A stretch of 64,000 nucleotides of DNA from Fibrobacter sp. UWP2 (GTDB taxonomy: Bacteria > Fibrobacterota > Fibrobacteria > Fibrobacterales > Fibrobacteraceae): positions 1 to 64,000 of the forward strand of contig NZ_FQYM01000015.1 in NCBI RefSeq assembly GCF_900141705.1, read 5' to 3'. Made by a program: the position numbers and the translations under genes. Shown here one piece after another: positions 23,762 to 37,038 of this stretch. Positions within the stretch are counted from its first letter, which is position 1. Every line of letters starts with the position of its first letter. The notes beneath the pieces were generated by a model. It searched no databases. It saw nothing but the letters and a program-made list of their open reading frames with translations, and was not told the origin of the DNA.

Positions 23762-25591
23762 TTACCTTGAATATACCTTAATTTTCCCGGAACGGTTCTT
23801 CAAGGCACCTGCAGAACGTCCGTTCACCAAGAAGTTCCGGCTACCATTGCGGAGCGTATTGCTACGCACGGGAATCCTCTGGAGTACCGTCGTGCCGCTG
23901 TCGCCTACCACCGAGTCGCCGGGATTGACGGGGATTACCGCATTCTTATTCACGAACTCGATACGGTCGATATTCGGGCCGCCATCCTTCGTGAGCGAGG
24001 CGATAGTGATGGTGCTTGCACCCGCAGGCAACTTGAGCGTCACCACGCTAGAATCCCACGATTCCCAGGCACCCGTCGATTCGAAGTCCACCGATTCCAC
24101 CTGCACCTTGCCATTCACCGCAACACTTACCGGGCGATTTGCCGTAGAGCCGTTCGCGAATACAATTTTCACGTCCTTGTCGCCCTCGCCTGCAGTAACC
24201 ACAGAAAGCGTCACCGAGGAACCCACCTCGTTGTCAAGGTTCGCATAGCCCTTGCCCGAAAAGCCCCCGTGCGTCGACTCGAGAACCGTCTTGTTGAACA
24301 CGCCGTTTTCCGCCTCGTACTTGAGCGAATCCTTGCCCACGAACTTGAAGGTCGCGCCCAAATTCACATCCTTGCCGAGACTTGCCACCGTGTATTCCTT
24401 GCCGTTACCCGTGTTGTCGCCGGTCCACGCCACGAATTCCCAACCCTCCTGCGGAACGGCGGTAAAGGTCACCTTGCTGCCTTCCGCAATTTCACTACCC
24501 TCGATGCTCTGCGCAATCGAGCCGCCGTAAGCGACAGTCGTCTTCACGTTGTACTTCTTTACGGCCTTGCCGACCTGCACCCAGTCCGGGAGCGTCGCGT
24601 TGTATTTTTTCGCAATATCGCGCAATTCCCTAAGGCGCGCGTTCGCCGTATATTTCTGGCCATCGCGATCGAACATCGGTTTTTTGCTGTAGCGGGTCGG
24701 CTCCCACACGAAGGTTCCCCAGCCCAGGTCGCCAAATTCGTAGAACACCGAGTTCACGAGGGCCGTGCGTTCGCCCGTATATTCGCAGCTCAACACCGCC
24801 TTCTTGTTCTTGACCACCAAGCCGAACATATCGCGCCAATCCTGCCCGTTGTTCGTGGTGCCGTAGGTGGAACCGCAAATGGCATCATAGTCGATATTCG
24901 CGTGAATCTTGCTGTACCAATCCGCGAAGCCCTTCTCGGGGCGCGGCTGTCCATGCTGCATCACAATCTTGATAGAAGGATCCGTCTCGCGCACCGCACG
25001 CACACCCGAATTGATGATATTCGCGAAGTCCGCCGTCTTGCTCAGCGAAACGCCCGCCACCTTCGAGTTGATTTCGTTACCCACCTGCACCATGTCGGGG
25101 CGAAGTCCCGCCTTCATGAGCGCATCCATGGTCGTCTTCACGTGGTTATAGGCGAGCTTGCCCATCTCGGCATTGCTCTTGCCCGCCCACGAGGCCGGAA
25201 CATTCTGGTGGCCGATGGATGCCCACGTGTCGCTCATGTGGAAATCGAGGAAGAATCCCATGTTGTGCGCCTTGATGCGCTTGGCGAGCGCGATGGTATG
25301 TTCCAGGTCGCACCAGCACACGTTGGAATTCGCGCCGGAGTAGCTCTCCTTGGCGTAGCCGATGCACGAATTCACGAAGGTGCGCACGCGGATAAAGTTG
25401 ATGCCGTTGTTCTGCAAGATGTCGAAAAGATCCTGCTTTTTACCGTCATCGTAGTATGTTGCCCCCAAGGACTCGTCTTCGAGCACCCACGAGATATCGA
25501 CGCCCACGATATACGGGCGCGCAAGCGCCGCAACCGCCACGGCACCCAGAGCCAGCGCTATTTTCCTGATGATTTTACCCATTCCAAACAT
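23762..25591 (-). CDS. Secreted glycoside hydrolase family 53 endo-beta-1,4-galactanase with CBM-like module
   Basis: 609 residues. Signal peptide, then VGVDISWVLEDE opens the GH53 barrel. Glu173 in VQVGNEINS is the acid/base and Glu270 in LSCEYTGE the nucleophile; GWGTFVWEPTRY closes the barrel near residue 300. A short B-repeat-like segment (VPQEGWEFVAWTGD, about 375-410) and a CBM6/35-like beta-sandwich (LKYEAENGVF ... GPNIDRIEFVN, about 425-560) follow. The tail is basic (NFLVNGRSAGALKNRSGK), the same type as in the CE12 protein. It cuts the beta-1,4-galactan side chains of rhamnogalacturonan I. Ribosome site AAAGGAG. First gene of the operon; two copies of the 19-bp TACTAY motif lie 35-95 nt upstream of its start. 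Confidence 0.93.
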   Translation of the reverse strand: MFGMGKIIRKIALALGAVAVAALARPYIVGVDISWVLEDESLGATYYDDGKKQDLFDILQNNGINFIRVRTFVNSCIGYAKESYSGANSNVCWCDLEHTIALAKRIKAHNMGFFLDFHMSDTWASIGHQNVPASWAGKSNAEMGKLAYNHVKTTMDALMKAGLRPDMVQVGNEINSKVAGVSLSKTADFANIINSGVRAVRETDPSIKIVMQHGQPRPEKGFADWYSKIHANIDYDAICGSTYGTTNNGQDWRDMFGLVVKNKKAVLSCEYTGERTALVNSVFYEFGDLGWGTFVWEPTRYSKKPMFDRDGQKYTANARLRELRDIAKKYNATLPDWVQVGKAVKKYNVKTTVAYGGSIAQSIEGSEIAEGSKVTFTAVPQEGWEFVAWTGDNTGNGKEYTVASLGKDVNLGATFKFVGKDSLKYEAENGVFNKTVLESTHGGFSGKGYANLDNEVGSSVTLSVVTAGEGDKDVKIVFANGSTANRPVSVAVNGKVQVESVDFESTGAWESWDSSVVTLKLPAGASTITIASLTKDGGPNIDRIEFVNKNAVIPVNPGDSVVGDSGTTVLQRIPVRSNTLRNGSRNFLVNGRSAGALKNRSGKIKVYSR

Positions 25592-25625: not shown

Positions 25626-25644
25626 TACTATAAATTGTACTACA
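25626..25644 (+). promoter_or_regulatory. TACTAY motif, copy 1 (GH53 operon)
   Basis: The site fits TACTAYAAAWYGTACTAYA and is 18/19 identical to the site before the TIGR02147 gene at 31462. It lies 35 nt before the GH53 start. Its two TACTAY half-sites are 12 bp apart. Confidence 0.6.
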
Positions 25645-25667: not shown

Positions 25668-25686
25668 TACTACAAAACGTACTATA
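25668..25686 (+). promoter_or_regulatory. TACTAY motif, copy 2 (GH53 operon)
   Basis: This is a second copy, 15/19 identical to copy 1 and in the same orientation, exactly 42 bp (about four helical turns) from it. Confidence 0.55.
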
Positions 25687-25848: not shown

Positions 25849-27504
25849 TTACCTCAGCTCAATTTTTTGGATGCGGCCGCCGAGCCTTACCACGTATGCG
25901 CCGGGAGCAAGGTTCTTCACAGCGACTTGCGCAGCATGCCCGCGGGCAACTACCACGCCGTGCAGATTCATCAGGGCGTAATCCGCAACCTGCGAGAATC
26001 GCAATCCATCCACGCGAGAAACCCCGACAATCCGTGCACCGAGATTCTCGGGCACCGCGATCAGCGACGTGGTTTCTACGGAACTGCTCGACACGGCCTC
26101 GCTAGAAGAACTTTCGGCGACAACAGAGCTAGAAGAACCATATGCAGATTCATCGCCCATGTATTCGAACTTGAACGACTGATTCTGCGTCCCGGTCTGT
26201 TTCCACACAACAAGCGGCATGCCCGCCTCCGTAGAGATGTTCAGGACGTCGCCTAGGTATTCACTTGCAGTATCCGCGTACAAACGGTAACCGTCATCCA
26301 CATTAAAGTTCTCGATGACAATGCGATTCTCGGCCTCGACGGTCCTTGCCGTATCAAGCAGGTTTCCCTTGCCGAACGAGAGATACTTCCCCGTTTCGAT
26401 GTTCCTGAGCGTGTAGGTGTAGCCGTCGATTCTCTTGAGCGCCCACAGTTGCGATTCGCTTTCTTCGGAATCCATCTGGATTACTGCGGAAGCCGCATCT
26501 TCGAGACTCAAGCCGCTGTGCCGCGCCTTGATGCGGTAAACGCCATCCCTGATTGGCGCATGGTCAACCTTCTTTACGCCTGCGTCGGTCATGGTGATGT
26601 TCGCGATGGTCGAATCGTTTTCGTAGTAGGCGTAGTCCACGCACAGCGCACGGCGGAAACTGCCGCCAATCGCGCCCGTATGGTATATGTAATACCACTG
26701 GTTATGGAATTCAACGAACGCCTGGTGGCTCGTATTGGAATTCTTGTTGTAGCCGACAATGACCTTGGAATTGGATACGGGCCCCGTCGGACTTTTCATG
26801 GTCGCCTGGCCAATGCGTTCTTCCCAGCCGTAGGCATACGTCAAAAAATAGTAGCCGTTCCTTTTGTGAACGTACGGCGCCTCGGTAAAACTGGGCGGCG
26901 TCACGTTGAACATGTTGCCTTGCAGCTCGACCATGTTTTCCTTGAGCCTGTAGCCCATCACGGCGCCGTTGCCCCAATAAATATAGGCCTGTCCGTCGTC
27001 ATCGATAAAGACGGTCGGGTCGATATCGTAATTCACGCCGCTATTCGCAGCAGTCATGTTGCTGGTAATGAGCGCCTTGCCGATGGCATCCTTGTACGGG
27101 CCGGCCGGATGGTCCGCAACCGCGACACCAACTGCAAAGTCCCTGCCGTCGTGCACGGTCACGTACCAGTAGAACTTGCCGTTCCGTTCGATAGCCTGGC
27201 TCGCCCAGGCACTGCCGCGTGCCCACTTGAACGACTTGATAGAAAGCACGGTCCCGCGATCCACCCAGGTATCCATATCTCCCGAAGAGAATACGTGCCA
27301 GTCGTTCATTATGTAACCTTCGTGACCGGCGGGCGCTTCGTCATGCCCCGTGAAGATATACATGGTATCGTTGTGAACGAGCCCCGCGGGGTCTGCCGTG
27401 AACATTTTTGTGACAACGGGATTGCTTGCGGCAAATGCACCAACGGCAAGCGACAATCCTGCACCTATAAAACCACCCCGAAGGGCGTTTCCCAATCCAT
27501 ACAT
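25849..27504 (-). CDS. Secreted glycoside hydrolase family 43 with ricin-like module
   Basis: 551 residues. Signal peptide, then a five-bladed propeller with the three GH43 acidic residues: Asp38 (FTADPAGLVHND), Asp162 (YDIDPTVFID) and Glu208 (SFTEAPYVHK). Residues about 310-460 look like a ricin-type lectin domain (GVYRIKARHSGLSLED ... QLWALKRI). A poly-Ser linker leads to a tail with VVARGHAAQV and APGAYVVRL. Family members are alpha-L-arabinofuranosidases, beta-xylosidases or galactan exo-enzymes; with GH53 and CE12 nearby an arabinan or arabinogalactan substrate is likely. Ribosome site AGGAG. It is a tandem paralogue of the next gene upstream (similar domain order, 35 nt apart). Confidence 0.88.
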   Translation of the reverse strand: MYGLGNALRGGFIGAGLSLAVGAFAASNPVVTKMFTADPAGLVHNDTMYIFTGHDEAPAGHEGYIMNDWHVFSSGDMDTWVDRGTVLSIKSFKWARGSAWASQAIERNGKFYWYVTVHDGRDFAVGVAVADHPAGPYKDAIGKALITSNMTAANSGVNYDIDPTVFIDDDGQAYIYWGNGAVMGYRLKENMVELQGNMFNVTPPSFTEAPYVHKRNGYYFLTYAYGWEERIGQATMKSPTGPVSNSKVIVGYNKNSNTSHQAFVEFHNQWYYIYHTGAIGGSFRRALCVDYAYYENDSTIANITMTDAGVKKVDHAPIRDGVYRIKARHSGLSLEDAASAVIQMDSEESESQLWALKRIDGYTYTLRNIETGKYLSFGKGNLLDTARTVEAENRIVIENFNVDDGYRLYADTASEYLGDVLNISTEAGMPLVVWKQTGTQNQSFKFEYMGDESAYGSSSSVVAESSSSEAVSSSSVETTSLIAVPENLGARIVGVSRVDGLRFSQVADYALMNLHGVVVARGHAAQVAVKNLAPGAYVVRLGGRIQKIELR

Positions 27505-27539: not shown

Positions 27540-29150
27540 CTAGAACATCACCCGATACGGAATCCGCCTGTCAAAACTGCGGCCCTTGAGGTCACGGTAA
27601 CCCTTGCGAGCAGGCACCTGCATTCCCTGGCGAGCGGCACGCGGAGCAATCGCGGTAGTTCCACTGCTGGAACTTTCGGGCGCGACTTCGCTGCTCGAAG
27701 AATTTTCGGCGACAACAGAGCTGGAAGACTCCTTGATGCTAGAGGACGATTCCGGTTCAACAGCCGGCGGGGTCGCCTTCGCGAGTTTCACCTTCTGGTT
27801 GTCGGCACCGGTACGCACCCAGGTAATCACAGGCATGCCTGCGTCCTTCGAGACATTCAGCACATCGCCCACAAAGTCGCTGTCGTAATCGCCATACAGG
27901 TAGTAGCCCTTCGCGGCAGAGGCGTTCTCGATGCGGATTTCGCAGGCAGTCGCCGACGTCTTGACGGTATCGAGCAGTGTCTTGGGCGGGCAATAGTAGC
28001 GGCCGGTACCGTAATTCTTGAGCGTGTAATGGCGGGCATTTTTCGCGCTGCGTTCCACGGTCCAGAACTGGTTTGCATCCTTTTCGCTTTCGGGGCGCTG
28101 CACCACGATTCCGTTTTCTTCGACCAGCGACAAGGCGCTGTGCGAAACAGTCAGGCGGTACGTGCCATTTTCCACGAGCGCGTTATTTACTTTGTCTACA
28201 CCCGTGGTAGTGCGCTTGATTTTCTGGATATTCGCATTCTCGTCATAGTACAGGTAGTCGATATTCACGGAGCGGCGGTAGGTCCAGCCACCCGGAGCGT
28301 TCGCACCATGATACATAAAGTACCAGTGGCCGAGATACTTGAAAATCGCCTGGTGGTTCGTCTCGGAATTGTCGAGCTTGTCGTTCAGCACGCCCTTCTG
28401 CGTCCACGGGCCATTCAGGCTTGTGGCCATCGAGTAGTTCGTGGTGGACGGGTAGCCCGAAGCATAACTGAAGTAGTAGTTGCCGCGGTACTTGTGCATC
28501 CAGGGAGCCTCGAAAAAGTCCCTGATCTTAATGTCTTCGGGCGTACTCGCGAGTTCAATCATATTTTCCTTGAGTTTCACGCGACGGCCCGCATTCCACG
28601 AGCCCCAATACATCCAGATATCGTTCCCGTCGTAGAAAATTGCGGGGTCGATATTCAGCGCGACATCGTTCTGGGTATCGTCGGTCACGAGCGCCTTGCC
28701 AATAGCATCCTTCCACGGGCCCGAGGGGTGATCGGCCACCGCGACGCCAATCGCGAAACCCTCATCCTGCTTGATTGTTGCGTGATGTACCGCCACGTAC
28801 CAGTAGAACTTGCCGTTACGGTATTCGCAATGCCCCGCAAAGGCGTTGCCGCTCGCCCACTTGAAGGTGCGCCACGAAAGTACCGCACCGTAGTCATGGT
28901 AGTTTTCCATGTCGTCGGTTACCAGCACGTGCCAGTCGTTCATCAAGAAGAACTTGTTGTTATCCCCCTGAGCGCCCTGCTCGTCGTGGCCCGCAAAAAT
29001 GAACAGGCTGTCGTTGTGCACGAGCGCCGCGGCGTCGGCAGAGTAGAATTTTGTAGTGAGCGGGTTCGCCGCAAGCACGAACGCCGGAAAAAACGCAGCG
29101 CAAAGAGCAGTGCCGCAAAGCAAAGCTTTGTTCAAGAAAGAATATCCCAT
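27540..29150 (-). CDS. Secreted glycoside hydrolase family 43 with ricin-like module (paralogue)
   Basis: 536 residues with the same architecture as the GH43 protein downstream: Asp39 (YSADAAALVHND), Asp168 (LNIDPAIFYD) and Glu214 (DFFEAPWMHK) are the catalytic triad. A ricin-like region (GTYRLTVSHSALSLVEE ... FWTVERS) and SSSS linkers follow. Unlike its paralogue, the C-terminus is basic (AARQGMQVPARKGYRDL ... DRRIPYRVMF) rather than the beta-sandwich tail, so the pair probably has different surface fates. The catalytic-domain differences suggest related but not identical arabino-substrates. First gene of the GH43 operon; a standard promoter lies upstream at 29191-29219. Confidence 0.88.
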   Translation of the reverse strand: MGYSFLNKALLCGTALCAAFFPAFVLAANPLTTKFYSADAAALVHNDSLFIFAGHDEQGAQGDNNKFFLMNDWHVLVTDDMENYHDYGAVLSWRTFKWASGNAFAGHCEYRNGKFYWYVAVHHATIKQDEGFAIGVAVADHPSGPWKDAIGKALVTDDTQNDVALNIDPAIFYDGNDIWMYWGSWNAGRRVKLKENMIELASTPEDIKIRDFFEAPWMHKYRGNYYFSYASGYPSTTNYSMATSLNGPWTQKGVLNDKLDNSETNHQAIFKYLGHWYFMYHGANAPGGWTYRRSVNIDYLYYDENANIQKIKRTTTGVDKVNNALVENGTYRLTVSHSALSLVEENGIVVQRPESEKDANQFWTVERSAKNARHYTLKNYGTGRYYCPPKTLLDTVKTSATACEIRIENASAAKGYYLYGDYDSDFVGDVLNVSKDAGMPVITWVRTGADNQKVKLAKATPPAVEPESSSSIKESSSSVVAENSSSSEVAPESSSSGTTAIAPRAARQGMQVPARKGYRDLKGRSFDRRIPYRVMF

Positions 29151-29190: not shown

Positions 29191-29219
29191 AATATACCTT
29201 CAAACTAATAAAAAGTCAA
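29191..29219 (-). promoter_or_regulatory. Promoter of the GH43 operon
   Basis: On the minus strand TTGACT (29214-29219), a 17-nt spacer and TATATT (29191-29196) match the vegetative consensus; the predicted start is about 33 nt before the ATG. The rest of the 207-nt gap (29151-29357) is AT-rich with no ORF. Confidence 0.6.
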
Positions 29220-29357
29220 CACTTTTGTTTATTTTTTACTATTTTTAAACATTTTCAACAATTTATAAACATAAAAAGTCCACATTTAGAGACTTGAAGG
29301 ATGAGCCCAAGCGGGGGTTGAATTTGGCGAAGTAATCTAAGTTTTGTTATAGCTCGA

Positions 29358-30620
29358 CTAAAAAACGGCGTTCTTTTGCAGGGCGTAGAACAGCTTGAAC
29401 CAGTCCTCGCCCTGGGCGCCATCGGTAAAGAAGACGTTCTGAATGCCGCCCACCATGTTGTTGTAGCCACCGATAAGAGGATAGCTCGCCTCATCAAGCC
29501 CTTCGGAGCCCTCGAAAGTCCTGCGTTCCAAAAATTCGCCATCCACGTAAATGGTTATTTCGTTTTTAGCAATTGTAAAGGCGTACTGGTGCCAGGCGCC
29601 ATCCAGAATTTCCGCCGTACCAAACACCGCATTGTAATCGCCATCGCGGGTGTTGATGCGGATGTTTATTTTGTTCGTAGCCTCGCGCTGCTGAACAATG
29701 AAGCCGGCGCTATCCTTGTCGGACACGAGAATCCGCGCATAGTTATGCAACTGCTCGGCGGCATCCATGTGGATCCAGAAGGAAACACCCAAGGTAAGGC
29801 TATCCGTAAACGTCTTTTCCATGCCGATAATCCGGCCATCGCCGGTCGTATCCATGACGACCTCGGGCAACCAGTAGGCACGTGCCAGGGGGAGCCCTGT
29901 ATGGTTCGTCAACGCACAGTTGTCAAACGCCTTGAATTCAATGGATCCATTTTTGGTCAAGGCTACCGTTTCCATGAGGCCCCAGTACAAAACGCTGTCG
30001 CCCGCGGCACCAGCAGAGTCCAAGAGGAGGATACTGCCCGCGGCATCGGTGAGGCACGGGTTTTTCAGCGAAGCCGGAAGCCACACAGGAAACGGCATAT
30101 CGGCTAGTTCCGCCGCACTGGCGCCATCGACCGCGGTACCCACGTCAAGGGAAACCGCCTGGGGCTCCTTCATGGGAAGCGCGGCATCGTAGCTCACTTC
30201 GCCTTCGACAGCCACCCATTCCACAGAAACGGAGCGCACTTCGCCCGAGGCGGAGCGGATCTCGACAGAATCGTAGGTACCCACAGGGACATCCACGATC
30301 TCAGCAATGCCTGTCAAAACCTCGACGGAATCCAGCACCTTCTCGAAACCATAGCGCGAAACATAGATGGTGTCGCCCACGGTATCGCTCTCGGTATAGC
30401 TCGCTACCAGCGTGTCGAACGCCGCAGCAGAAAGAGCCGCCGTGGAAATGTACATGCGGGCGAGCCCCTTGTTGCCGGTGTTCGTCTCGATGATTGTCCC
30501 CGCAGTATTCGCGCCAGAAGGAGAATCGCTACAAGCAGCAAACACGACCAGCGACGCGGCGCAGAGAAACATCGCAAAATTCAGCGTGCAGAAAGGCTTC
30601 GTGATAAGTAAACGTTTCAT
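29358..30620 (-). CDS. Lipoprotein with C-terminal LamG-like domain, paired with TIGR02147 regulator
   Basis: 420 residues. The signal peptide ends VFAACSDS (lipobox Cys), so the protein is a lipoprotein. Residues about 45-190 are beta-rich with no recognised family; residues about 225-415 form a concanavalin/LamG-like jelly roll (GVSFWIHMDAAEQLH, RILVSDKDSAGFI, WHQYAFTIAKNEITIYVDGE, YPLIGGYNNM). Such domains bind glycans or proteins. The ATG overlaps the TAA of the upstream regulator by one base (TAATG), so synthesis is coupled. The neighbouring module repeats this arrangement with a different lipoprotein. A carbohydrate-sensing role is inferred from this layout only. Confidence 0.7.
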   Translation of the reverse strand: MKRLLITKPFCTLNFAMFLCAASLVVFAACSDSPSGANTAGTIIETNTGNKGLARMYISTAALSAAAFDTLVASYTESDTVGDTIYVSRYGFEKVLDSVEVLTGIAEIVDVPVGTYDSVEIRSASGEVRSVSVEWVAVEGEVSYDAALPMKEPQAVSLDVGTAVDGASAAELADMPFPVWLPASLKNPCLTDAAGSILLLDSAGAAGDSVLYWGLMETVALTKNGSIEFKAFDNCALTNHTGLPLARAYWLPEVVMDTTGDGRIIGMEKTFTDSLTLGVSFWIHMDAAEQLHNYARILVSDKDSAGFIVQQREATNKINIRINTRDGDYNAVFGTAEILDGAWHQYAFTIAKNEITIYVDGEFLERRTFEGSEGLDEASYPLIGGYNNMVGGIQNVFFTDGAQGEDWFKLFYALQKNAVF

Positions 30621-31462
30621 TATTCGCCCTCCTTCTCGTTCTTGACGTTGCTGAACACGTGGAGGTTGATGTGCTCCACCTCCGTTGCGGCAGCGCGGTC
30701 CTCGCGCACAATCTTGCGGACTTCCTCTTTGAATCTCTCGGTGGCATGCTCAATTTTTTCGCGGCCCCTGCGCGAGACGCTGAAATTGAACGTGGTAAAA
30801 TCCCTGGATTCGCCGTCGGCGGATTCCAGCGCCTGTCGCGAAAGGTCAAGACACTTCATCTGGTACTGGAGCACCATCTTGTCTTTGCACTCGCTCACGG
30901 TGCGGTAGCTTTCGCGGGTCGCCTTCCAAAAGCCTTTGTCGTTCTTGCGGATAAGTTCCATCTTTTTGAGCAGCGCAAGCGATTCGCGAATCTTTTTCTC
31001 CGATACAGGCGGGAACAGCTTTTGCTGCAGTTCCGTAACATCGTCAGCGACGTTCATGGAGTCGAGGGCGTTGAACACCACCACGTTGTACCAGTTGGAG
31101 AATAGTTCGTAGCTTTCGGGTTCCACGATGATTTGCGGGTTCGGATTCAACTTGAGCATGCACTTCATGGCAAGCTCGCGGGCATCCGCCGTCTTTCCCT
31201 GGTCAAAATGCACCATGGCCTCGAAGTAGCGCGCCTCATCGCCCTTGAGCCCAATGACCGCAACAAAGCGCGAGAGCATCTCCTTGGTGATGGCTTTGCC
31301 CTTGAGTACGTCGTTGAAATAGCTGCGCGTGTGCGGCAGCCCCAGCTTGTTGCAGAATTCCGTGCGGGTGAACGTAGGCTCCGAAAGGGCGCGCCGTTCC
31401 TGATATTCCGCCAAAAAGTTCCTGACCTTGGTAAATTCGAATATGTTGACGTACTGGCTCAT
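30620..31462 (-). CDS. TIGR02147-family regulator-like protein
   Basis: 280 residues. The N-terminal NIFEFTKVRNFLAEYQERR followed by an HTH-like segment (FTRTEFCNKLGLPHTRSYFNDVLKG) is the conserved opening of TIGR02147, the second-largest paralogous family of Fibrobacter succinogenes. The centre (YELFSNWYNVVVFNAL) and the C-terminus (FNFSVSRRGREKIEHA) also match. The helix-turn-helix suggests DNA binding; no ligand domain or kinase was recognised. A TATATTTG box lies 4 nt before the ATG, and a TACTAY motif lies 29-47 nt upstream, as in the GH53 operon promoter region. It overlaps the LamG-like lipoprotein gene by one base. Confidence 0.8.
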   Translation of the reverse strand: MSQYVNIFEFTKVRNFLAEYQERRALSEPTFTRTEFCNKLGLPHTRSYFNDVLKGKAITKEMLSRFVAVIGLKGDEARYFEAMVHFDQGKTADARELAMKCMLKLNPNPQIIVEPESYELFSNWYNVVVFNALDSMNVADDVTELQQKLFPPVSEKKIRESLALLKKMELIRKNDKGFWKATRESYRTVSECKDKMVLQYQMKCLDLSRQALESADGESRDFTTFNFSVSRRGREKIEHATERFKEEVRKIVREDRAAATEVEHINLHVFSNVKNEKEGE

Positions 31463-31466
31463 GCCT

Positions 31467-31474
31467 CAAATATA
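31467..31474 (-). promoter_or_regulatory. TAnnTTTG box before TIGR02147 regulator 1
   Basis: On the minus strand TATATTTG lies 4 nt before the ATG at 31462; there is no properly spaced ribosome site. Confidence 0.5.
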
Positions 31475-31490
31475 TAATAATTTTCGCGCA

Positions 31491-31509
31491 GGTAGTACAA
31501 TTTATAGTA
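31491..31509 (-). promoter_or_regulatory. TACTAY motif, copy 3 (regulator promoter)
   Basis: On the minus strand it reads TACTATAAATTGTACTACC: 18 consecutive bases identical to copy 1 at the GH53 operon, 5.8 kb away. It lies about 17 nt upstream of the -7 box, over the expected -35 region, so binding could block or replace -35 recognition. Confidence 0.6.
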
Positions 31510-31559
31510 AAAGCTTGATAAAAAGTCTTTTTTTTCGAGCTACGCACAACAAAGCGCCT

Positions 31560-32822
31560 TTATTGCCGTATTTCTGCGAAGTCCTCGATTCCCAGGCCTT
31601 CAAAGACAATTTCGTCAATTTGCAGGCGGGTGCCACTGTAAATGAACAGGCTAAAGAGGGCAATTTCTGAGGAGACCTCGTCAAAAGGCACATTATAACT
31701 GGCGCTGTCCAGGGACTCCTCACCGGGGCGGAGCACCACCTCGGTCCAATCGTCCGTCGCATTCACCTTCCAGTAGGCCTTGCGGAACTTGTTGTCTTCC
31801 ACTTCTTCGTAATGCTCCAGAGCAAGGCCGAATTCGGCGTCGCCCTTCACCTTGATGCGAATGGCGGTCAGCATACTCAAATCAAAATAGGTGGAATCGG
31901 CGCCCAGGTGCGTCCCCAAGAGTATGCCCCCGTTGTTATCAAGCTCGTATTCCAGCTTAAGAGAAAGCCCTTCAAAGGCATCTGCAGAATCCAGCGCCGC
32001 GACCACGTTCCCCGCCGTATCGGGGAAAATCCAGGTCACGCCGGTAACCGACATCAGGTACCAGCCGTAACCCTTGGAGACCGTCACAAGGTTGTTCACA
32101 TTGTCGCCATCATCAAAGTCCTCGAACAGGAATTCCTTCGACAACGAATCCTCCGCCGAAGCGTCCATAAACGAGACCAACGTGTCGAGGGCCTCCCCCG
32201 CGGCAAGCGAAACCCGGAGCTCCGTAGAATCCGCGACGAGAGTGTAACTGCCCGCAGGCACGTGGGCAAACACGTATTCCGAGCCATGCAATTGCGCGAC
32301 ATATGGCGTTGACGCCAACGAGACCTGAGCCGCCAGCAGCAAAGAATCCGACTCAGCGGAAACGGTTCGCACGCGGATGCTCGACGAAGGCAAAAGCTCT
32401 ATTTCGCAGGCAGCCGCCAGGGGGTCCGGCGTCAGTCCACCTGCAGGCAACTCAAGCGGCGCCCACGCCATGAGCGCGGAATCCGCACCCGAGATGGCTT
32501 CCACAAAACAGCCGCCTAAGCCGCAGAGCGAGTCCAAACTGGCAACCATAAATTCAAAGCGGGCCTCGCCCAGGGAATCCGATTCCACCGCCTGCAAAAG
32601 GTCAGTGCCGTGAGCCACGTAAAGCGCCACGCGGGCCTGTGCCAAGGGGGCATTCTCTGCATTCACCACGCGGATTGCAATACCGTTGGTGGTCTCGCTG
32701 GTGGCACCCGCCGTGCTAGAGGAATCCGAACAAGCTGCAAAAAAGGCTGCGAACAGGAGATACACTCCGAGCTTCGCACGTCGGTATGTCGCGTTAAACA
32801 AGCATCCCGCTAACAACTTCAT
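31560..32822 (-). CDS. Lipoprotein with C-terminal carbohydrate-binding-like domain, paired with second TIGR02147 regulator
   Basis: 420 residues from the ATG at 32822. The signal ends FFAACSDS (lipobox Cys). Two beta-rich segments (IAIRVVNAENAPLAQARVALYV near residue 50; SIRVRTVSAESDSLLLAAQV near residue 150) look like carboxypeptidase-regulatory/Ig-type folds, each with a G-x-Y-x-L strand. Residues about 245-410 (FEDFDDGDNVNNLVT, IRIKVKGDAEFGLALEH, AYWKVNATDDWTEVVL, LQIDEIVFEG) resemble a galactose-binding jelly roll of the CBM11 kind. The ATG overlaps the TGA of the upstream regulator (ATGA). Layout is the same as the preceding module, although the two lipoproteins differ in domains. Confidence 0.7.
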   Translation of the reverse strand: MKLLAGCLFNATYRRAKLGVYLLFAAFFAACSDSSSTAGATSETTNGIAIRVVNAENAPLAQARVALYVAHGTDLLQAVESDSLGEARFEFMVASLDSLCGLGGCFVEAISGADSALMAWAPLELPAGGLTPDPLAAACEIELLPSSSIRVRTVSAESDSLLLAAQVSLASTPYVAQLHGSEYVFAHVPAGSYTLVADSTELRVSLAAGEALDTLVSFMDASAEDSLSKEFLFEDFDDGDNVNNLVTVSKGYGWYLMSVTGVTWIFPDTAGNVVAALDSADAFEGLSLKLEYELDNNGGILLGTHLGADSTYFDLSMLTAIRIKVKGDAEFGLALEHYEEVEDNKFRKAYWKVNATDDWTEVVLRPGEESLDSASYNVPFDEVSSEIALFSLFIYSGTRLQIDEIVFEGLGIEDFAEIRQ

Positions 32823-33670
32823 CGTTCGCATTCCTTTTTCATCATGGGGAACAACTGAAAATTCAACTGGTAAACGCTGTCGCAAACTTCGGAGGGCATG
32901 CCATTCACCACGTTCACAATCTCCTTACGCGCCTCCGCCAAAATACGGCGGACCTTTTGGATTTGCGTCGAATCCATGGCGAGGGTGAGCGTGCTGATGT
33001 CGCGGTTCTCTTTGGGCGTGTTCGAGATGGCCTGCTTCGCAAGTTCCGCGATGCTCCCCTGATACTCGCTAATGCAGGCGCTGCACCAGCGCTCGCCCGT
33101 GCGCACATGGGCAATCGTCGGCACCACGCGGCCGTTCGGCTTCTTGGTCGCAAGCCCAAGCGAAAGCAACGCCTCCACGGCGGCATTCACTTGCGCCGCA
33201 GTAAGCTTCGGGATGCACGCATCACCGAGGGCATCGGCATCCGCCACGCCGCGGTAATCGAACACATCCAGGGCCGAGCGGATCATCGGGTAGTACCACG
33301 TCTGGAAATAACGGTACTGCACCTCGTCGAGCTCGCGGCACGAGGCAGGCCGCATCTTTTGCATGTGTTCAAAGTGTATGCGAATATCGGCATCGGTCTT
33401 CGCCTTGCCATAGGCGACCATCTCGCGGAAGTACTCGCCCTTCGCCTCCTTAAAACGGAAGAAGGCGACAAAGGCCTCCACGGACTTGGACGATATGTGT
33501 CGCTTTTCCTGGATGACCTTCAAAAGGAGGCTTGCGTCCATCTCCACGGCGCAGGCGAACACGCGGTAGCTGAAAGTCGGGTCCAGCGCCTTCTCCATCA
33601 CGTAGAAGGCCTGTAAGAACTTCCGGTAATCCGTAAAGTCAAAGACGTTGATTTTACTTCTCGAAAACAT
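32819..33670 (-). CDS. TIGR02147-family regulator-like protein (second copy)
   Basis: 283 residues from the ATG at 33670, where the family-typical MFSRSKINVFDFTDYRKFLQAFY begins; the frame extends eight codons upstream into a palindrome, which argues against a longer protein. The domain order matches the first copy: HTH-like N-terminus (YRVFACAVEMDASLLLKVIQ), central YFQTWYYPMIRSALDV, C-terminal RDISTLTLAMDSTQIQKVRR, where the conserved Arg-rich helix lies. A GTATAGT / ACTATAC inverted repeat lies 9-29 nt upstream and contains a TATAGT -10-like hexamer, so autoregulation is likely. It is coupled to its lipoprotein by ATGA. Confidence 0.8.
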   Translation of the reverse strand: MFSRSKINVFDFTDYRKFLQAFYVMEKALDPTFSYRVFACAVEMDASLLLKVIQEKRHISSKSVEAFVAFFRFKEAKGEYFREMVAYGKAKTDADIRIHFEHMQKMRPASCRELDEVQYRYFQTWYYPMIRSALDVFDYRGVADADALGDACIPKLTAAQVNAAVEALLSLGLATKKPNGRVVPTIAHVRTGERWCSACISEYQGSIAELAKQAISNTPKENRDISTLTLAMDSTQIQKVRRILAEARKEIVNVVNGMPSEVCDSVYQLNFQLFPMMKKECER

Positions 33671-33699: not shown

Positions 33700-33834
33700 A
33701 TTATGAATATAAATAATTGCAGCCCCCGATGCAACAAAAAGTTACATTAGTTGACATTTTTGTCCACACCCGCAAGCAAAACCCTTTGTACTCGCAAACC
33801 TCTAGATATACATTATAGTTATCAAGGAGTCCTT

Positions 33835-35487
33835 ATGAAAAACATTGAAAAAGCCTTAATTTTAGCGGTTTCCGCAACTTTTCTCACATCGGCCCCGGCT
33901 CTTGCCGCCAAGTACGAAGCCGAATCGGCCACCCTCAGCGGAGGCGCCACCCCAGGCGCCGATAATTCCGCTTCGGGTTCAAAATTTGTCAACATGAACG
34001 GGGGGACTATCACATTCCCGAACGTATCTGTCGAAAACGCCGGCAAATACGAACTCGCCATCACTTATAGGGCCGATAACCCCAAGAACAACCTCATTAA
34101 GGTAAACGGCTCCACTTCACAAACCCTGGCGTTCCCCGCAACCACAAGCTGGAGCAAGGCGATCGCCATCGTCACCCTCAAAAAGGGAAACAATTCCATC
34201 GCCATCGACAAGGACTGGGGCTGGATCAGCGTGGACTACATCGATATTACGCCCTACACACCCGCACCCTTCAGCATCTCCCCCAAGCCGGTGACCCCAA
34301 ACCCCACAGAAGGGCTCGTCAAGCTCTACGCATTCCTGGTGGAGAACTTCGAAAAAAAGACCATCAGTGGCATCATGACGGGCGACTTGGGCAGCCATAC
34401 CTTGGGAGACGACTTCCGTAAACAGGACGACGTGGAGGAAATTTACAAGCGGAGCGGCAAGTACCCGGCACTTGTAGGTGTAGACTTCCTGTTTGCCTCG
34501 GGGCCAAACGCCAAATCCTCCTGGAACATGGAATACACAACGAAGGCGATAGACATTGCGAAGGGTGTCTGGAAAGCCGGAGGAATCCCGAACTTCACCT
34601 GGCACTGGAAAGACCCCCTCGACAAGGATGACGCATTCTACACCCCGGGGGCAAGCAACGGGACCACAACAAACTTCAATTTCGCAGACGCCTTTGTAGC
34701 CGGGACCACCGAATGGAATACCGAAAGCGCAGCCTACAAGGGAATCATTAACGACGTCGATTTCATCGCGGACTTTTTCCTCGACCTTCAAAAGGATGGA
34801 GTTGCCGGAATCTTCCGCCCACTCCACGAAGCAGGTGGCACCTGGTTCTGGTGGAGCATCAATTCCGGCAAGCAGTTCGCGGCACTATACCGGCTCGTCT
34901 ATGACCGCATGGTAAATGTCAAGGGGGTCCGCAACATGGTTTGGGTTTACAACCCCTCCACCGACGACGTGAACGGCTGGGACCCGGGCGACAGCTACTA
35001 CGACGTGCTCGGCATAGACATCTACAACAGATCAGGCGACAACTCCAGCAACGCGGCAAGCTTTGACGGCCTCAAGGCAAAGAACGGGGGCAAAAAGATA
35101 CTCGCCCTCACCGAGAACGGGCCCATCCCCGACGTAGCCAAGATGCACGAGGACGTCTCGGTATGGAGCTGGTGGATGCCCTGGTACCACACATGGAACA
35201 GCAAATTCATCGACCAGACTCCCGACGCTGTATGGAAAAGCAACATGGAGGACGACCGCATTTTAACCCTCGACAAGATGCCTGGCTGGGACAAGTATGT
35301 GGTCAGCAGTTCCAGCTCAGACCCCGGCACCACCCGCTTGAACAAGGTTTTGACCAGCAAGGCGCCGGAAGTCCGCCACTTGGGCGACCGCACACGAGTC
35401 TACAACCTGAACGGACGCGCAGTCGGCAATGGATCGGGATTGTCTGGAGAGCGCCGCCTGCCCCGTGGTTACTACGTCACCAAGTAA
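33835..35487 (+). CDS. Secreted glycoside hydrolase family 26 mannanase with CBM35-like module
   Basis: 550 residues from the ATG at 33835 (AAGGAG six bases upstream; the open frame to 33751 has no signal peptide). Signal peptide, then a CBM6/35 sandwich (KYEAESATLSGG ... GWISVDYIDITP, about 25-140), then the GH26 barrel with Glu332 acid/base (FRPLHEAGG) and Glu427 nucleophile (LALTENGP). Endo-beta-1,4-mannanase is the usual activity. The tail has VYNLNGRAVGNG and LPRGYYVTK but stops there, about ten residues shorter than the tails of the GH30 or SGNH proteins. It is divergent from the second regulator-lipoprotein module, with 164 nt between the starts. A strong terminator follows. Confidence 0.92.
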   Translation: MKNIEKALILAVSATFLTSAPALAAKYEAESATLSGGATPGADNSASGSKFVNMNGGTITFPNVSVENAGKYELAITYRADNPKNNLIKVNGSTSQTLAFPATTSWSKAIAIVTLKKGNNSIAIDKDWGWISVDYIDITPYTPAPFSISPKPVTPNPTEGLVKLYAFLVENFEKKTISGIMTGDLGSHTLGDDFRKQDDVEEIYKRSGKYPALVGVDFLFASGPNAKSSWNMEYTTKAIDIAKGVWKAGGIPNFTWHWKDPLDKDDAFYTPGASNGTTTNFNFADAFVAGTTEWNTESAAYKGIINDVDFIADFFLDLQKDGVAGIFRPLHEAGGTWFWWSINSGKQFAALYRLVYDRMVNVKGVRNMVWVYNPSTDDVNGWDPGDSYYDVLGIDIYNRSGDNSSNAASFDGLKAKNGGKKILALTENGPIPDVAKMHEDVSVWSWWMPWYHTWNSKFIDQTPDAVWKSNMEDDRILTLDKMPGWDKYVVSSSSSDPGTTRLNKVLTSKAPEVRHLGDRTRVYNLNGRAVGNGSGLSGERRLPRGYYVTK

Positions 35488-35640: not shown

Positions 35641-37038
35641 ATGGAAAAGACAAAAGCCCTCGGGCTGTTTTTATGCGTTGCCGCCATGGCAATTTGCCCA
35701 CAGGTAAAGGCCATTACGCCAAACCCGCTGGTGAGCGGCGGGGTCAAAGCGATTGCCGACGGCACCGAAACCGACTACCTCACCGACGGTTCGCTCATCA
35801 ACTGGAAGTACAGCACCGCCAAAAAAATTGCCTTCCAACTCAAGGAGGGACCCACCAAGCTCCGCATCAACTGGGAATCGCTGGGCGATTGCGCCTGGGC
35901 CACCAATTTTACCACAGGTTGTGGTCACTCAGGCACCGCGCTCTCGGACTTCAAGATTTTTACCTCCGCCAATTCCACCAACGGCGTCGACGGGGACTGG
36001 ACTTTGGCCACCGAGGTGAAAGGAAACCCGGTCATGGCGCGCGGGGTCGACATCGACTTTGCCGGCAAGTCCTGGTTCCGCATCGAAAGCGAAAAGGAAG
36101 TGGGCCAGATTCTGGAAGTGCAGGCGTTCGACATGAGCAACGACGGTGACGACACTTGGTTCTTTATGGGCACGAGCATCAGCCAGATGGGAATTAAGCA
36201 GCAGGACACCGACTCCACCACCGCCGACCTAATCCACGCACGCCACCCCGACTTTACGCCCGCCATGCTGCGGGGCGGCATCGGCTGCATCAACAGCACC
36301 GAGGTGGTCGCCCACCTGGGCGAATACCTGGAATACGCGGGCAACGTCAAATACTGGGCCATCGAGATGGGCACCAACGACGCCTGGGGCGGCGGCGACT
36401 GGAACGTAGGGACCTTCGAAAAGAACATGCAGACCATCATCGACTCGGCAAAGGCGCACGGCATCACGCCGGTATTGGCCCGCATCATCGCCACGAACCC
36501 GGCCAAAACCGATGGCGGCTGGCAAATCAACCCCAAGTTCCTGGATGTTATAGACAACTTAACACAAAAGAACGGTTTGCCCAAAGGACCCGACTTTTAC
36601 AGCTATTTTGAAGCCCACCCCGAGCTTTTGGCCAACGACGGCGTGCACCCCAACGGCGAAACTGGCGGCGGCAAAGCCATGCACCGGCTGTGGGCCGAGG
36701 CGCTGGCACCGCTCTACGCCACAAGCTCCATCCCCACCAGCAGCTCCAGCGAACCCGAAACACCGGGGAGCAGCTCCACCACGGAGTTTATCGCCCTTAC
36801 CGCACCCGCAGCAGCATTTGTGCAACTGCAGGGGCAAAACATCGTGGTGTCGCCGCAACTTCCGGGAGAAGTCACGTTCTCCCTTGTGGACATGACGGGC
36901 CACGTAGTGGCCAACACCCGCGCCTACGTACAACAGGGGGCGACCCACAGTTTTGCGGTGCAGGCGCCCGCCGGCAGTTACATCGCCACGGTACGCGGCC
37001 CCGGCGGGAAGGCGTCCATCAACGTGCGGTTCAAGTAA
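35641..37038 (+). CDS. Secreted SGNH-hydrolase carbohydrate esterase
   Basis: 465 residues. Signal peptide, then a discoidin-like beta-sandwich (about 30-165: ADGTETDYLTDGSLINW ... EVGQILEVQAF), then the SGNH domain: Ser179 (FFMGTSISQ), Gly in RGGIGCINS, Asn246 (EMGTNDAWG) and the dyad in NDGVHPNGE (Asp333, His336). Members deacetylate xylan, mannan or pectin; beside a mannanase an acetyl-mannan role is plausible but not proven. A SSSS linker and a beta-sandwich tail (SLVDMTGHVVANTR ... GSYIATVRGPGG) follow. Ribosome site AAAGGAG. It stands after the GH26 terminator with its own promoter region. Confidence 0.8.
   Translation: MEKTKALGLFLCVAAMAICPQVKAITPNPLVSGGVKAIADGTETDYLTDGSLINWKYSTAKKIAFQLKEGPTKLRINWESLGDCAWATNFTTGCGHSGTALSDFKIFTSANSTNGVDGDWTLATEVKGNPVMARGVDIDFAGKSWFRIESEKEVGQILEVQAFDMSNDGDDTWFFMGTSISQMGIKQQDTDSTTADLIHARHPDFTPAMLRGGIGCINSTEVVAHLGEYLEYAGNVKYWAIEMGTNDAWGGGDWNVGTFEKNMQTIIDSAKAHGITPVLARIIATNPAKTDGGWQINPKFLDVIDNLTQKNGLPKGPDFYSYFEAHPELLANDGVHPNGETGGGKAMHRLWAEALAPLYATSSIPTSSSSEPETPGSSSTTEFIALTAPAAAFVQLQGQNIVVSPQLPGEVTFSLVDMTGHVVANTRAYVQQGATHSFAVQAPAGSYIATVRGPGGKASINVRFK

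Follow-up and report, generated by a model that had tools for sequence, protein, structure and literature searches.

The two consecutive regulator-lipoprotein modules in the window, the whole stretch of 64,000 nt analysed here, are a special case of a much larger, phylum-wide pattern in which a TIGR02147 gene is followed by a lipoprotein gene. The sequence evidence strongly supports the regulator half of these modules, in which the TIGR02147 proteins would control pectin and mannan enzymes locally and autoregulate, each through an operator of its own and over a small polysaccharide regulon. For the best explanation as a whole, in which each module joins such a regulator to a lipoprotein partner that takes part in the same circuit, we estimate a probability of about 0.5. 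Pectin and mannan enzymes thereby gain candidate regulators from a phylum-wide family of undescribed function, together with named predicted operators and target promoters.

Both modules lie on the minus strand. Module 1 consists of regulator 1 (W1, 32819..33670) and lipoprotein 1 (31560..32822), and module 2 of regulator 2 (W2, 30620..31462) and lipoprotein 2 (29358..30620). As the initial annotation had stated, the regulator stop overlaps the lipoprotein start in both, as ATGA in module 1 and as TAATG in module 2; lipoprotein 1 has a second possible in-frame ATG 9 nt upstream of its start at 32822. W1 and W2 are clear members by score of TIGR02147 (Fsuc_second) and of Pfam DUF4423, with full-length TIGR02147 matches of 228 and 238 bits against a curated cut-off of 50, and DUF4423 scores of 96.7 (1.7e-27) and 86.4 (2.4e-24) against a cut-off of 30. 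DUF4423 proteins are also present outside the phylum, in Bdellovibrio. The lipoproteins were called by a rule-based caller, and an FAAC lipobox is visible in both sequences. A jelly-roll end, which had been proposed for both, is found in lipoprotein 2, whose C-terminus is a lectin-like Laminin_G_3 domain (E 9e-14), and is unconfirmed for lipoprotein 1, as its C-terminus matched no Pfam family; near the N-terminus, lipoprotein 1 has weak matches to CarboxypepD_reg and the Ig-like Big_1.

The module pair does sit between pectin and mannan enzyme genes. On one side are a GH53 endo-galactanase (23762..25591, minus strand; Glyco_hydro_53 1.3e-51), a GH43 enzyme (25849..27504, minus strand) and another GH43 enzyme downstream of lipoprotein 2 (27540..29150, minus strand; Glyco_hydro_43 4.4e-27). 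On the other side are a GH26+CBM35 mannanase divergent from W1 (33835..35487, plus strand; Glyco_hydro_26 2.3e-52) and, after it, a GDSL esterase (35641..37038, plus strand; Lipase_GDSL_2 6.6e-6, under the curated cut-off). Neither module contains a sensor kinase, an anti-sigma factor or a TonB receptor. Lipoprotein 1 orthologues sit downstream of W1 orthologues in 29 of 29 other loci. The tandem order of modules 1 and 2 did not recur in the orthologue loci analysed, within flanks of 1.5 kb for module 1 and of up to 6 kb for module 2.

The pairing extends to nearly all paralogues. This genome has 22 TIGR02147 genes, and in 21 of them a lipoprotein gene starts between -13 and +15 nt from the TIGR02147 stop, with an overlap in most. 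As a control, we computed the pairing of other genes in 864 kb of the 3.2 Mb genome, using a simple purpose-made gene caller; there, 34 of 577 (6%) have a close downstream lipoprotein gene (Fisher p about 6e-23 against 21/22). Within those same 864 kb, nine of the ten called regulators are paired (p 2.5e-10 against 34/577). The paralogue survey proposed with the initial annotation thus found lipoprotein partners to be hugely enriched in this genome, rather than at the background level. The family is present in all 61 genomes of the genus, with 6 to at least 34 copies in each of the 60 others, and in 157 of 168 Fibrobacterota genomes, covering 39 of 41 genera. A lipoprotein is adjacent at 68 of 82 regulators sampled from this genome and 14 others in Fibrobacterota, a count that includes nine clear lipoproteins overlooked by the automatic rule and added by eye. 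Similarly, among the regulators of 50 named Fibrobacter loci for which the sequence extends far enough downstream, nearly all have a lipoprotein partner, several of these falling outside the automatic rule and being plain on inspection. One well-supported monophyletic regulator clade (L029, at G000:C12:17219-18031, with L056, L058 and L061) has no adjacent lipoprotein, which means that some TIGR02147 members can do without it. Proximity to CAZyme genes is not a general rule, as most other modules in this genome adjoin housekeeping genes.

The regulators appear to have operators of their own. An alignment of the sequences upstream of 30 W1 orthologues contained a single strongly conserved block, an inverted repeat TGTGGACAAAAATGTC[AC]ACA. 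In the window, this candidate W1 operator is the inverted repeat TGTGGACAAAAATGTCAAC (33749..33768, minus strand) between W1 and the GH26 gene; written as TGTGGACAAAAATGTCMACA, the predicted operator of module 1 lies in the intergenic region common to the regulator and the mannanase. With up to two mismatches allowed, it occurs once in this genome, at 33749-33768. Among 61 genomes, the operator was found in 39 of 40 that have a W1 orthologue versus 3 of 21 that do not (p 2e-11), and the reversed pattern was found in 1 of 61. The three genomes with a site and without W1 are incomplete, and their sites adjoin GH26 or GDSL esterase genes. A GH26 homologue accompanies the W1 orthologue in 26 of 29 loci. 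Other species have extra W1-type sites in the vicinity of FGE-sulfatase-like lipoprotein genes and of a CE15-like esterase/pectate lyase pair, and some of these may belong to other paralogues. At three loci (L267-L269), the W1 operator takes a variant form with an AAATAT core, which lies by a glucuronyl esterase-like gene, with a pectate lyase on the other side in two of the three; this variant is possibly the site of another paralogue.

For module 2, the footprint in the W2 promoter, conserved in 10 orthologues, is ACTAYAAANTGTACTAC, and the candidate operator ACTATAAATTGTACTAC matches it without mismatch at 31492..31508 (minus strand). Only two exact matches to this operator exist in the 3.2 Mb genome, where about 1e-4 to 3e-3 would be expected by chance: the one in the W2 promoter, which is there by construction, and one upstream of the GH53 galactanase, which is independent of the construction. 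The latter (25627..25643, plus strand) precedes the GH53 start by 36 nt, and a third W2-type site with two mismatches (25669..25685, plus strand) is also upstream of this gene. In another species (L106), three W2-type sites precede GH53. Weaker matches occur before a PL11 rhamnogalacturonan lyase, as three half-sites, and before a GH127 arabinofuranosidase, and the genes flanking W2 orthologues in other species encode pectinesterase, pectate lyase, PL11, GDSL esterase or GH43 enzymes, that is, pectin/RG-I functions.

Similar repeats were found for other modules. Three further subfamilies in the named loci have their own distinct repeats at the regulator promoter, as do two more modules that were each tracked through 26 genomes, although the pattern is less clear-cut for the one with a pectate-lyase-headed lipoprotein. 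The half-site of this third module (regulator G000:C2:158858), TGTGGACTTTTT, has a match with one mismatch before the GH43 gene at 27540-29150 in the window, tied with the module's own site as the best in the genome, and it also occurs before a PL11 lyase and another GH43 in this genome; similar half-sites lie before GH43 genes in L108-L110. The half-sites of this operator before the window's GH43 gene are found at 29211-29284, and include TGTGGACTTTT (29274..29284, minus strand). This suggests that some of the genes clustered here are also under the control of a distant regulator. The footprinted operator of the module with a CBM4_9 head finds no other good match in this genome. As this operator is unrepeated and housekeeping genes are the neighbours of most modules, control of CAZyme genes is well supported for some modules and not for all.

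The predicted structure of the regulators is consistent with DNA binding. The first 110 residues of W2 were modelled with pLDDT 90 and pTM 0.82, and the structural neighbours of this N-terminal part are nearly all HTH domains of the XRE/Cro type (HigA, 434 repressor, SinR; Z up to 8.1). Residues from about 110 to 215 resemble the winged helices of MarR, PadR and HxlR (Z 8-9, up to 9.4), and the whole-chain model (pTM 0.45) contains a winged helix and long helices. With Foldseek alone, no match to the regulator models reached an E value below 0.001, a sequence search of solved structures gave weak HTH matches, and for TPRs only weak profile matches were obtained. The earlier description of the regulator as an HTH protein agrees with these two predicted DNA-binding folds and with the conserved subfamily operators. 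As the Z scores are middling, the whole-chain pTM is 0.45 and Foldseek found no match below its threshold, we infer DNA binding from the two predicted domains.

Many of the paired lipoproteins have a common architecture, in which the anchor leads into one or two Ig-like domains, CarboxypepD_reg-like or other, and these into a variable head (Laminin_G_3, CBM_4_9, Pectate_lyase_4, Fib_succ_major or DUF2341). A study of the F. succinogenes envelope quantified four lipoproteins that have carboxypeptidase-regulatory-like domains, found them lower on cellulose and classed them under peptidoglycan biogenesis (PMC6851124); these may be members of TIGR02147 modules.

A few residues past the lipidated Cys, the paired lipoproteins contain a motif that reads roughly AG-x-x-[ST]-E-x-x-N, and its wording tracks the regulator subfamily. 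Lipoprotein 1, paired with W1, has AGATSETTNGIA (32676..32711, minus strand), which is near-invariant in 29 orthologues, and lipoprotein 2, paired with W2, has AGTIIETNTGNKGLA (30459..30503, minus strand), of which ETNTGNK is kept in the orthologues. The motifs of two other modules, AGIEIGNP and AGGTEAESTIA, are kept in 24/25 and 25/25 called orthologues. Across three subfamilies, identity is 70-82% in the motif region, 39-50% in the body and 41-62% in the last eight residues of the signal peptide. As synonymous codons in the motif are no more conserved than those in the body, the motif is conserved as a peptide, and a DNA or RNA element was rejected. The motif is also specific to paired lipoproteins: when the 864 kb were scanned with a profile built solely from other genomes, the seven best scores (16-44 bits) all belonged to paired lipoproteins (p 3e-9), whereas the best of 86 unpaired lipoproteins scored 9.3 bits. 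The remaining two of the nine paired lipoproteins scored low (5.6 and 6.3 bits), beneath one unpaired lipoprotein. In two loci (L104 and L111), LIETNTG is present as a tandem duplicate (GILIETNTGNKVLIETNTG) at the start of the lipoprotein gene; the L104 record is labelled as a Bacteroidales bacterium, and its contig carries Fibrobacter-type genes, so that the label is probably a binning error. Co-variation of motif and regulator was rejected as proof of contact between them. Across genera, the Spearman correlation with the regulator was 0.23 for the motif and 0.14 for the body, and nearest neighbours agreed in 37/68 and 39/68 cases, respectively; as both track the regulator, this is explained by co-inheritance.

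We propose that each unit is a self-contained regulatory module, in which the TIGR02147 protein would be a cytoplasmic, sequence-specific transcription factor that binds a repeat operator private to its own subfamily. As this operator lies at its own promoter, the regulator and lipoprotein would be autoregulated together, and the same operator before a few polysaccharide genes would bring these under the same presumed control. Module 1 would thus control the divergent GH26 mannanase, and module 2 the GH53 galactanase and probably also the PL11 rhamnogalacturonan lyase and GH127 arabinofuranosidase. The translationally coupled lipoprotein would be the envelope partner, composed of a lipid anchor, a subfamily-specific AG-x-x-E-x-x-N peptide, an Ig-like stalk and a variable lectin-, CBM- or enzyme-like head; presumably exposed at the surface, it would most likely contact the matching glycan or its fragments and sway the regulator via the membrane-proximal motif. 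The initial annotation had suggested a glycan-sensing switch. Its regulator half is strongly supported by the candidate operators, which tie module 1 to GH26 and module 2 to GH53 and other pectin genes, while its link to CAZyme genes does not extend to the modules in general.

A role for the lipoprotein in the circuit is argued by its peptide, which is specific, conserved and linked to the regulator, and it is plausible that the lipoprotein is the sensor. Caution is called for because orphan regulators exist and because two membranes lie in between: for a cytoplasmic protein and a lipoprotein of the outer envelope, the route of contact is not obvious. The relay of a signal from lipoprotein to regulator is thus a tentative proposal. 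A comparably serious possibility is that the regulator senses a soluble cytoplasmic inducer, a sugar or oligosaccharide, and that the lipoprotein is mere output, a surface binding protein or adhesin made like the enzymes. This explains the operators and CAZyme targets without a relay and accommodates regulators that have no adjacent lipoprotein; moreover, winged-helix domains of the MarR/PadR type often bind small ligands. It leaves unexplained why a subfamily-specific peptide, better conserved than the heads, sits next to the anchor of paired lipoproteins and of no others.

The conservation of this peptide at the protein level, its specificity to the regulator, the LIETNTG duplication in two loci and the adjacency of a cytoplasmic regulator gene would also fit a peptide that is excised, imported and read by the regulator, as in enterococcal PrgX/cCF10. 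We consider this improbable, as cCF10 derives from the signal peptide of a lipoprotein, before the Cys (PMC7117660), whereas the conserved part here follows the Cys and the signal peptide is less conserved than the motif. An RRNPP-type regulator was rejected on this ground and on the lack of an obvious TPR array in the model (pTM 0.45). Sorting signals of lipoproteins in other bacteria sit just past the lipidated Cys, but a general sorting or surface-export tag of the phylum, with no tie to the regulator, is very improbable and was rejected, as none of the 86 unpaired lipoproteins in the 864 kb scored above 9.3 bits while 7/9 paired ones reached 16-44, and the motif differs between regulator subfamilies.

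Returning to the regulatory module with a lipoprotein partner, we found no description of the function of TIGR02147, the lipoprotein pairing, the motif or the operators in the open-access papers searched. The F. succinogenes genome paper described the regulation of cellulases as an unanswered question, with regulators scarce near cellulase genes (PMC3079729). The TIGR02147 modules qualify as good candidates for the regulators still missing from the picture of plant-fibre digestion; none of the targets found in this analysis is a cellulase. If the lipoprotein does relay a signal, this would constitute a new route by which a soluble regulator receives information from the envelope. It is conceivable, if rather unlikely, that the modules form an undescribed class of transmembrane signalling, in which a co-translated lipoprotein reports the state of glycans to a soluble transcription factor via a short regulator-specific peptide beside its anchor, and which, with tens of copies per genome and private operators and regulons, would be the main control of plant polysaccharide degradation in Fibrobacterota.

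Among known systems, one-component factors of the XRE type and of the MarR/PadR type are alike in predicted folds and in the location of repeat operators, both at the regulator's own promoter and at neighbouring ones. Unlike these, TIGR02147 proteins join both folds in one protein and almost always have a translationally coupled lipoprotein partner. PrgX/cCF10 and other RRNPP systems are similar in that a cytoplasmic HTH regulator may be linked to a lipoprotein-derived peptide, but in TIGR02147 partners the conserved peptide follows the lipidated Cys, and the regulator model shows no obvious TPR array. The glycan-sensing systems of Bacteroidota, hybrid two-component systems and ECF sigma/anti-sigma pairs with SusC/SusD, likewise have regulators encoded locally, next to the genes for glycan enzymes and surface lipoproteins, whereas the TIGR02147 regulator is of the soluble one-component type.
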